The notes under the pieces: generated by a model | What the model was told of the DNA's origin: nothing | Databases searched by the model: none | The model's input: only the letters and a program-made list of their open reading frames with translations | Part shown: in pieces, positions 21,403 through 24,033 of the stretch | Numbering within the stretch: position 1 is the first letter of the stretch | Layout: each line of letters starts with the position of its first letter | Program-made: the position numbers and the translations under genes | DNA from: Phascolomyces articulosus | Taxonomy: Eukaryota; Mucoromycota; Mucoromycetes; Mucorales; Lichtheimiaceae | NCBI GenBank assembly: GCA_025677815.1 | Contig: JAIXMP010000008.1 | Span: forward strand, 744,001 to 808,000 | Length of the DNA stretch: 64,000 nt | Reading direction: 5' to 3'

Positions 21403-22023
21403 ATGAGCCAACGGATTCAGAACCTTTACATTGCAAGATTAACAACAAACGAACGGCCATGTTATGTATGTAATAAATTCACAGCAGTTGTATTGACATT
21501 GGCCGATAATAGCAATCTCGATTGGTTTTATATTTGTCGGTCTCATCTAGGCGATACCAACTTATGTACTCGTATAGGAGGTCCAGCAGGAGAAGCAAAC
21601 AAATCAGCTTCATCTAGTCCAAAGGCAAAGAAAAAATTAGAGGATCGCCCTCCAGAAAGCGATAGCGTATCTGATTTGGTGGCAAGCATAGGATCAGCAT
21701 GGAATTCATGGCGTAAGAAACCTTCGCAGGACGAAGATGATAAAAAGGATGACGACAAGAAAAAGAAAGACAATGATGATGATAAAAAAGATGCGAAGAA
21801 AACAAAGGATGATGACAAAGAGGAGCAAGAAGAAAAAACGGACAAGGTAGAGAGTGCCTCAGTTTCACCAAAGTCGCCACAGCAACCCATACGATTCATA
21901 TTAAACAGAGATTATTTCTACATGCGACAACGTGAATATACGAAAAAGATCCAGAAGAAAGTAGCAAATAACAAGTTAACGACATTGGATTTCCCAGAAG
22001 TCCCAAAAACTCATCCAAAATAA
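21403..22023 (+). CDS. VFA1: VPS4-associated protein 1 (Vfa1 family)
   Basis: Single-exon, 206 residues. The N-terminal domain has the Vfa1 zinc-binding pattern: NLYIARLTTNERPCYVCNKF, then FYICRSHLGDTNLC, giving paired Cys-x2-Cys and a Cys/His set. The C-terminal half is a Lys/Asp/Glu-rich linker (residues 110-155) followed by a basic helix (YTKKIQKKVANNKL). In yeast Vfa1 binds the AAA-ATPase Vps4 and stimulates its activity in ESCRT-III disassembly at endosomes, through a C-terminal MIT-interacting segment. Here RDYFYMRQREYTKKIQKK could play that part (inference). The start chosen is the first ATG; the conserved domain begins within ten residues of it. Confidence 0.85.
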   Translation: MSQRIQNLYIARLTTNERPCYVCNKFTAVVLTLADNSNLDWFYICRSHLGDTNLCTRIGGPAGEANKSASSSPKAKKKLEDRPPESDSVSDLVASIGSAWNSWRKKPSQDEDDKKDDDKKKKDNDDDKKDAKKTKDDDKEEQEEKTDKVESASVSPKSPQQPIRFILNRDYFYMRQREYTKKIQKKVANNKLTTLDFPEVPKTHPK

Positions 22024-22342
22024 TAATCAAAGCACATGCTATATTACGTTTTTGCTCATGTTAATCTTTTATATCAACAGATTGACCAAAATATAATCTT
22101 AATAGTTTATTTTCTTGTCGTATCATAATTTTATTGATAAAAACAAGCCCTTTTATATTTTATATAATAAATATTTCTTTTAGATAATGTTTTGAGAAAG
22201 GATCAACTCTGATTGTTGTGTGAAGAATATTTATATATTTGTATCTGACCGAAGTTGATTGAAATTCAGACACCGTTGCGGGTCCGGAGCATATCTCTTT
22301 GGCAATCTACGGTAGTGAGAAACCTCCTCTTTGAACATCACC
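22024..22342. promoter_or_regulatory. VFA1 3' flank and RPL24 promoter / 5' leader
   Basis: AT-rich 319 bp with TATATTTTATATAATAAAT-like runs near 22155-22180 and a less AT-rich leader just before the RPL24 ATG. No precise initiation site can be read from sequence. Confidence 0.4.
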
Positions 22343-23002
22343 ATGAAGTAATGTATCAAATCCATCCATCCATCCGATAGTAAACGCATCCATCAATCAT
22401 CCATATTGACATTAATCTATGTAGGCTCGAGATTTGCTCGTTCTCCGGTTACAAGATCTACCCCTCCAAGGGCAAAGTTTACGTCCGTAGTGACAGCAGG
22501 TAATAAATGAGAATAAGAATGCAATCGATGCATCAGCGTTTTTAGAGTTGACCTGGTCCCTTCTTGATAATTAACAAACTTTTTTATTTTTTATTTTTCA
22601 CCAATGATAGAGTAAGCAAACGATCGCATTGACGAAAATGTTAATATATTCAATTTACGTTTTATTACAACATAATTAATAATTTATTATCATCAATAGA
22701 CTTTCCGCTTCATTAACGGCAAGGCTGAATCCTACTTCTTGCAACGTTTGAGTCCTCGCAAGATTCGCTGGACCCAAATCTACCGTCGTCTCAACAAGAA
22801 GGGTGTCACCGAACAAATTGTCAAGAAGCGCACCCGCCGTACTGTCAAGGCTGAACGTGCCGTTGGTGGTGCTTCCTGGGACGAAATCCGTGCCAAGCGT
22901 AACGAAAAGCCCGAAGTCCGTGCTGCTGCTCGTCAAGCTGCTATTGAAAAGAGCAAGGAAAAGGCTAAGGCTAAGGGTGCCCAAAAGGCTGCCAAGAAAT
23001 AA
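22343..23002 (+). CDS. RPL24: 60S ribosomal protein L24 (eL24), with a predicted 1-nt exon
   Basis: Structural protein of the large ribosomal subunit. Derived exons are 22343-22347 (ATG AA), 22425-22499, 22611 (single base A) and 22700-23002. They give 384 nt, or 127 residues. The product begins MKLEICSFSGYKIYPSKGK, the zinc-ribbon-type N-terminal domain. It continues through VYVRSDSRTFRFINGKAE and the RKIRWT segment to a Lys/Ala-rich tail ending AKGAQKAAKK. The conserved Ser-Arg-Thr-Phe-Arg-Phe join needs codon AG|A|, and the A can be supplied by base 22611. That base is flanked by a T-rich tract plus CCAATGATAG acceptor and a GTAAGC donor. Joining 22499 straight to 22700 breaks the frame. 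Codon usage is strongly biased to C-ending codons, as expected for a ribosomal protein. The protein is shorter than human eL24 (157 residues). Confidence 0.95.
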
Positions 23003-24033
23003 GCAATTAAATGGGTGTAGCATTGTAATAAATGACCATTTTGCATATTGAAAAAGAACTATGTGTTATATTTATTAATATGTTGGATGAAAATATCTTG
23101 GACATGTTGGAAGTTATCTTATCTCTCGAGCAATGTGCATCGGACACAACAAATGTTGGTATGATTGATATATGTATATGTTGGAAGAGGAACGGAATTA
23201 TTGGGAGGAGGACTGACAGGTTTAACAATAACGGAGTAAATGACCTGGATATTATAAGTATGTACTTTATTTTTCCGTTTGATAGCTGTAAGAATGGTAA
23301 AATAATGGATAGTGGCGATGATGATATTCAAAGAAAAATTATTATTTACACAATAAATGATGAATAAAAATGTACAGCATGTGTAGCAATGTTTACACAA
23401 CATTGTTCATTCTTATTAAAACTGGGAAGCACATATTCACACCACAATCGATCGTATTTTGATAAAAAGTGATGTACATATTTTACTTAGTATAAATAGT
23501 TGGTTGGCACCAATTCAACATTCGATCCACTACTCACTACCCCTCAGGACTTATGTTTGTTGATTATGTGGCATTAAAACGAATTTTAAACTTATGGCTG
23601 ATGAACATAATCCCTAAGCTTACGTCTTCCTAATAAGTACACAAGTCTTTAAGTTTCAAAGGTATAAATTCGATCTTAGTCTAATAGTTTGTTATTAGAG
23701 ATGCTCAACTAAGTTCACTCGATCCGAGTTTTTAATATTCTGCATTTGTAAATTACTTGAAGAACCTACTCTTTATGATACATTTGACCAGGATCTGGGT
23801 ACATTATTGTAAAATGTACCAGAAAATTCCCGCATTTTCTGTGGCAAGTATTGATCGTGATCAAAGTATCCAGTAGTATTCTAAATGCAAGAAATTTGAA
23901 CATGTATAACAATTATTCACGTGGATTAGATATAGCAGCTTCAAGTACAATGAAAATGTGCGTACTTTTTTTCCCTAGAAACATATATAAATTCCACTCT
24001 AAATCAAAAATGATTTGCTGATCATCAGTAACC
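23003..24033. other. Intergenic region between RPL24 and the secreted-protein gene
   Basis: RPL24 3' region and the promoter of the next gene. A 111-residue open frame at 23032-23367 has no recognisable motif and an antisense frame of similar length, so I treat it as non-coding. Nothing else is supported. Confidence 0.5.
23984..23990 (+). promoter_or_regulatory. TATA box of the secreted choice-of-anchor gene
   Basis: TATATAA about 45-50 bp upstream of the ATG at 24034, followed by an A/C-rich leader. Confidence 0.5.

Follow-up and report, generated by a model that had tools for sequence, protein, structure and literature searches.

The gene for ribosomal protein eL24 in Phascolomyces articulosus, a member of the Mucorales, raises the question of how its second and third coding exons are joined, when their direct joint is one base out of frame. 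The window, a stretch of 64,000 nt (G000:C89:744001-808000), lies on a 1,588,579-bp contig and carries the gene at 22343-23002. The gene product is eL24, which matches Pfam Ribosomal_L24e (PF01246) with 103.4 bits against a curated cut-off of 27. Its upstream neighbour on the same strand (21403-22023) has a Pfam match to Vfa1 (Vps4-associated protein 1) of 104 bits. An Rfam search of 21900-23400 gave no match at E up to 1. The predicted layout of the eL24 gene comprises the following features:

22343-22347, plus strand: coding exon 1, 5 nt, ATGAA, read as ATG AA/G CTC GAG (MKLE), the same in a second gene copy.
22348-22424, plus strand: intron 1, 77 nt, GTAATG...TAG.
22425-22499, plus strand: coding exon 2, with the phase 2 end GAC AGC AG (GACAGCAG), followed by GTAATA.
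22500-22610, plus strand: intron 2a, 111 nt, GTAATA...GATAG, with YTRAY motifs (weak) 37, 44, and 60 nt from its 3' end.
22611, plus strand: predicted one-nucleotide exon A, in TAG-A-GTAAGC, the third base of the Arg codon AGA.
22612-22699, plus strand: intron 2b, 88 nt, GTAAGC...AATAG, phase 0; in the paralogue RLP24 the homologous phase-0 position also carries an intron.
22700-23002, plus strand: coding exon 3, which opens ACT TTC CGC (ACTTTCCGC) and runs to the stop TAA.

With the A at 22611, the coding sequence is 384 nt including the stop, is in frame, and encodes 127 amino acids with the stretch ...SDSRTFRF.... The protein aligns without gaps to solved eL24 across 124-125 residues in the three alignments shown. 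Without the A, the direct join of exon 2 to exon 3 leads to a stop after 16 further residues, and no single GT-AG intron between the two exons joins them in frame; the base is needed for the frame of a conserved protein. The sequence-only reading gave the exon coordinates and the one-base deficit at 22499/22700 correctly. It had proposed that a single A at 22611 with canonical borders restores DSRTF, and this proves to be the best canonical solution, is repeated in the second copy, and falls where public models often fail. Judged from these comparisons of sequence, A 22611 is very probably a one-nucleotide coding exon of eL24, which would be kept in the mRNA by the successive removal of two ordinary GT-AG introns.

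The public model of the window gene, P0003, lacks VRSDSR, and its Pfam L24e score drops from 103.4 to 77.3 bits. These residues might be truly absent if one intron ran from a donor GTCCGT at 22483 to 22699. P0003 (a cluster of 7 members) was deposited in this form, and several other Mucoromycotina models have the same deletion. However, positions that are filled in the three solved eL24 alignments would be removed, the donor at 22483 scores only -0.08 bits (-3.28 at the same place in the second copy), and P0001, the public model of that copy, retains the residues. True absence can be given almost no weight, and the VRSDSR-less form could be a minor isoform.

The second copy comes from a search for the L24e family, which found matches at at least two further places in the genome besides the window. 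One of them is a second eL24 gene on contig C57 (233,179 bp). Its exon 2 also ends GACAGCAG, before GTAAAA, and its exon 3 opens ACC TTC after GATAG. The single A lies between them at L007:809 (G000:C57:216308), in the context TTCTTATAG-A-GTGAGT (TATAG-A-GTGAGT). One base between AG and GT with canonical flanking introns is thus found in both eL24 copies and is conserved in the DNA of the second, and the spliced reading frames of both are full-length only with this base. If the A is kept and another intron, near the C-terminus, is removed, the C57 copy yields the public protein P0001, letter for letter. This additional 144-nt intron (L007:1238-1381) does not occur in the window copy, and the C-terminal ends of the copies differ (KKAGKQ vs QKAAKK). 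The first 120 codons have 21 synonymous and no nonsynonymous differences, the last 7 codons, where the two ends differ, being left out of the comparison; both eL24 proteins therefore look constrained.

A one-base gap in the frame is the classic sign of a base lost in sequencing or assembly, and equally of a pseudogene. Here the identical gap occurs at the same junction in two copies on different contigs, and together with the synonymous-only differences this argues against a sequencing slip or a pseudogene. Models of other species also fail at the same place. Either kind of damage is hardly credible as the cause. A sequencing indel and a non-canonical splice site had been the alternatives allowed by the sequence-only reading, and neither explains the TAG-A-GTGAGT of the second copy.

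The AG-A-GT is kept in both copies although their introns are otherwise little alike in local alignment. For the two introns 2a, 25/31 and 30/31 unrelated introns score as high, and for the two introns 2b, 3/31 and 8/31. Global alignment of the copies' introns compared with simple shuffles gives z values of 3.2 (intron 1), 0.5 (2a), and 2.1 (2b), which is some likeness. Window intron 2a and copy intron 2b have in common TGATAATTAAC and a T-rich stretch, at 22565-22598 (3' part of window 2a) and L007:897-933. Their alignment has 37 columns, its score is reached by none of the 31 unrelated introns against window 2a, and the global score has z 5.1 against simple shuffles (one of seven comparisons). 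The TGATAATTAAC likeness may represent a common branch-point context or shared descent. The 37-column alignment raised the question whether introns 2a and 2b, or the introns of the two copies, share an origin. This is not claimed; against copy 2b, 3/31 unrelated introns do as well.

The frequency of such sites by chance was taken from 264 kb of the window's contig on both strands (528,000 nt), in which AG-A-GT and AG-G-GT sites were counted by score. Scores at least as high as that of the window copy are found at 78 sites, and at least as high as that of the second copy at 93. For the middles of apparent introns, leaving at least 50 nt on each side, the expected numbers by chance are 0.015 (window), 0.025 (copy), and 3.7e-4 for both together. 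This bears on the possibility of a single long intron bounded by TA-AG or GT-TA, one end being non-canonical, in which the G of GTAATA or of AATAG would give AGG ACT, again Arg-Thr. A G is present at these places in both copies, and the protein sequence is the same for AGA or AGG. Nevertheless, such an intron leaves unexplained both the TAG-A-GTRAG of the two copies (chance about 3.7e-4) and the Val-Arg, Val-Ser, and Val-Cys read-throughs of other species described below. To our knowledge, no spliceosomal intron class has TA-AG or GT-TA ends of this sort, and we regard this solution as very unlikely. The same Ser-Arg-Thr would also result if a single intron were removed and the ribosome slipped back by one base at AGA, so that the A was read a second time. 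This deserves next to no credence, as there is no slippery heptamer at GACAGCAGACTTTCC (by eye) and the conserved AG-A-GT would again have no explanation.

With the outer splice sites fixed, frame-restoring internal exons of up to 89 nt were tried, and the single A scores highest in both genes, among 4 such exons in the window and among 2 in the copy. A longer micro-exon such as 22546-22555 (10 nt, R-VDL) restores the frame in the window copy, but it reaches 2.0 bits compared to 6.8 for the single A, adds three residues within the conserved stretch, and is not matched by any such exon in the second copy; this choice is exceedingly improbable. The sequence-only reading presented A 22611 as the single candidate. 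It is the best-scoring one, but a second, weak AG-A-GT at 22546 (TTTTTAG-A-GTTGAC) had not been mentioned. A 22546, one of those 4 exons, is likewise a lone A between AG and GT, gives the same mRNA and the same protein, and has an acceptor of 4.6 bits, slightly above the 4.0 of 22611. On the other hand, its donor GTTGAC scores -4.7 bits compared to 2.8, so that the sum is -0.1 vs 6.8 bits, and the upstream intron would have 46 nt, shorter than all 31 comparison introns (67-197 nt). In the C57 copy, the span contains a single AG-N-GT, whose donor is GTGAGT. A 22546 is a most improbable place for the one-nucleotide exon of the window copy, and A 22611 is the preferred base.

The splice sites around A 22611 and its counterpart are not strong. 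Relative to the 31 comparison introns, which were chosen by a score similar to that used for ranking, the window donors rank at the 10th (2a) and 6th (2b) percentile, those of the copy at the 32nd (2a) and 3rd (2b), and the acceptors at the 6th-23rd. The donors of intron 1, which are required by the start codon, are equally low (10th and 6th percentile). A YTRAY branch-point motif occurs in all four introns 2a and 2b but in only 16/31 comparison introns, and lends weak support.

Public gene models contain traces of the junction in other species. The eL24 set of 159 proteins combines the best 120 of 235 matches from one search with the best 120 of 448 from another, the RLP24 set is the best 120 of 5615, and taxa were assigned by hand from the given names. 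Among the matches listed, the region between KIYP and the NP motif is aberrant in 47/66 eL24 models from Mucoromycotina (Mucorales and Umbelopsidales), in 0/78 from other named organisms, and in 1/15 without an organism name (P0105, which starts after the junction). In part of the 47, the difference comes from an exchanged start extending as far as exon 3 and not from the junction alone, and the 19/66 regular models are silent on how they were spliced. Of the 46 species among the matches listed, 28 are represented by aberrant models alone, 11 by regular models alone, and 7 by both kinds. Aberrant models occur in 19/27 Mucoromycotina genera, and all six Umbelopsis models (6/6), from a separate order and class of Mucoromycotina, are aberrant, again among the matches listed. 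Several Mucoromycotina eL24 models are also wrong at the N-terminus (MNRLEIC, FRLEIC), where coding exon 1 has only 5 nt.

RLP24 serves as the control. In this genome the RLP24 gene is interrupted at the homologous place by an ordinary intron (AAG/GTATGT...AACAG/ACC), and the public protein P0160 equals the predicted splicing over all 159 residues. Among the best 120 of 5615 matches, this place is aberrant in 1/50 Mucoromycotina RLP24 models (P0241, which starts at exon 3) and in 0/70 others. The Fisher values are 7.8e-23 for the eL24 models and 8.4e-16 for the comparison with the RLP24 control, both of which overstate independence, the species being related.

The aberrant eL24 models that still read through DSR or DSS number 19. 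Eight of them, from six species, continue from DSR with Val and then Arg, Ser, or Cys, as from reading A/GTNNGT: Absidia glauca, Rhizomucor pusillus, Lichtheimia ornata, Mucor fragilis, Mucor circinelloides (two), and Rhizopus stolonifer (two). Reading through exon 2's own donor gives AGG TNN, never Val. Counted by model, binomial values uncorrected for kinship are 9e-6 to 3e-4; counted by species, they are 4e-4 to 5e-3. Two further models, Rhizopus arrhizus P0130 and Mucor hiemalis P0134, have the continuation LSVS, which is the frameshift of the direct AG/ACT joint. The other nine of the 19 fit neither trace. P0022, P0025, P0051, and P0061 read DSS and have no A after AG; P0051 also has Val next, but after DSS and before Leu, and is outside the eight. 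By back-translation by hand, Lichtheimia corymbifera P0051 (...LYCR/TFRF), one of the nine, and Choanephora P0111 (...FSAYR/TFRF), outside the nineteen, look as though an exon starts too far upstream but has its correct end at AG-R. A pattern search for eL24 DNA of other fungi in viral and genome contig collections matched 24, 22, and 80 stretches, none of which was confirmed. The public protein models point to a single-nucleotide exon in other species. Many related moulds likely share it, a breadth read from protein models that, in some species, could be faulty on other grounds.

If A 22611 is an exon, the acceptor of intron 2a and the donor of intron 2b would overlap with no exon body between them and could not be occupied together. 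This overlap suggests that introns 2a and 2b would be removed sequentially by intron definition, in two canonical excisions. The second donor, AGA/GTAAGC (AGA/GTGAGT in the copy), is unchanged from -3 to +6 before and after the removal of 2a, because exon 2 and intron 2a both end in AG. Pairing with U1 would thus not force an order, and either order is possible. Removal of 2a first would give the intermediate AGCAGAGTAAGC, removal of 2b first would give GATAGAACTTTC, and a micro-exon at A 22546 rather than 22611 would give AGCAGAGTTGAC. Skipping of the A would lead to a frameshift and an early stop.

The RLP24 intron at the homologous place suggests that 2b is the older of the two, and 2a would have arisen one base upstream, probably before the split of Mucorales and Umbelopsidales. 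An alternative origin is the loss of a base rescued by a cryptic exon, as suggested for Fusarium (PMC12940212). We lean slightly towards a one-nucleotide exon that became fixed in eL24 on the stem lineage of Mucoromycotina, prior to this split, and has been kept since, and which would be ancient and subphylum-wide; the frameshifting skip could then act as a built-in valve on eL24 output.

The unusual aspects of this exon are the gene concerned, its likely breadth over Mucorales and Umbelopsidales, and the scale of mis-annotation. If the exon is real, the spliceosome copes with an exon of one base even in a ribosomal protein gene, and an exon of this kind can be maintained throughout a fungal subphylum. 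It would also account for the 47/66 Mucoromycotina eL24 models (among the matches listed) that are aberrant at one place, and it offers annotators a concrete test case. The eL24 transcript is predicted to be abundant, and ordinary RNA-seq could reveal the order in which the two overlapping introns are removed.

Among the matches listed in open-licence PubMed Central full texts, no one-nucleotide exon was found in a ribosomal protein gene or in Mucoromycota. The main text of PMC1764039, on ribosomal protein introns with Rhizopus included, contains no word that starts with L24. The sequence-only reading knew of no such exon in a fungal ribosomal protein gene; this holds for ribosomal protein genes, but a fungal one-nucleotide exon does exist, in Fusarium CYP621A (PMC12940212). 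In organelles, a one-nucleotide exon is reported for placozoan mitochondrial cox1 (PMC5436844), and a fungal mitochondrial paper uses the term one-nucleotide exon (PMC12308204).

Arabidopsis APC11 has a single-nucleotide exon (Guo and Liu 2015, PMC4674806). It resembles eL24 in having a lone A between AG and GT that is needed for the frame and is mis-annotated in databases, and the authors propose that two introns are removed one after another. In contrast, APC11 is a plant gene, and constructs in Arabidopsis and rice protoplasts served to test its A, whereas the eL24 exon is fungal, lies in a ribosomal protein gene, and is predicted from sequence. The [D1,2] stwintrons of ascomycetes, as described in PMC12403724, are similar to the eL24 proposal in that two introns are removed consecutively by canonical splicing with intron definition. 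In a stwintron, however, the internal intron sits between G1 and U2 of the external donor, with no exon base in between. eL24 falls outside the [D1,2] definition: one exon base lies between its introns, the junction is one exon base before the second donor, and the split is at donor positions -2/-1. In Fusarium CYP621A (Nelson and Syed 2026, PMC12940212), a P450 gene that is rarely expressed, the exon base is G, there are reads from two species, and public transcripts are, per the authors, wrong at the junction in all but one case. The CYP621A exon is like that of eL24 in being fungal and predicted from frame and orthologue alignment. Unlike CYP621A, eL24 has the base A, is a ribosomal protein gene, and has aberrant models in 19/27 Mucoromycotina genera among the matches listed.
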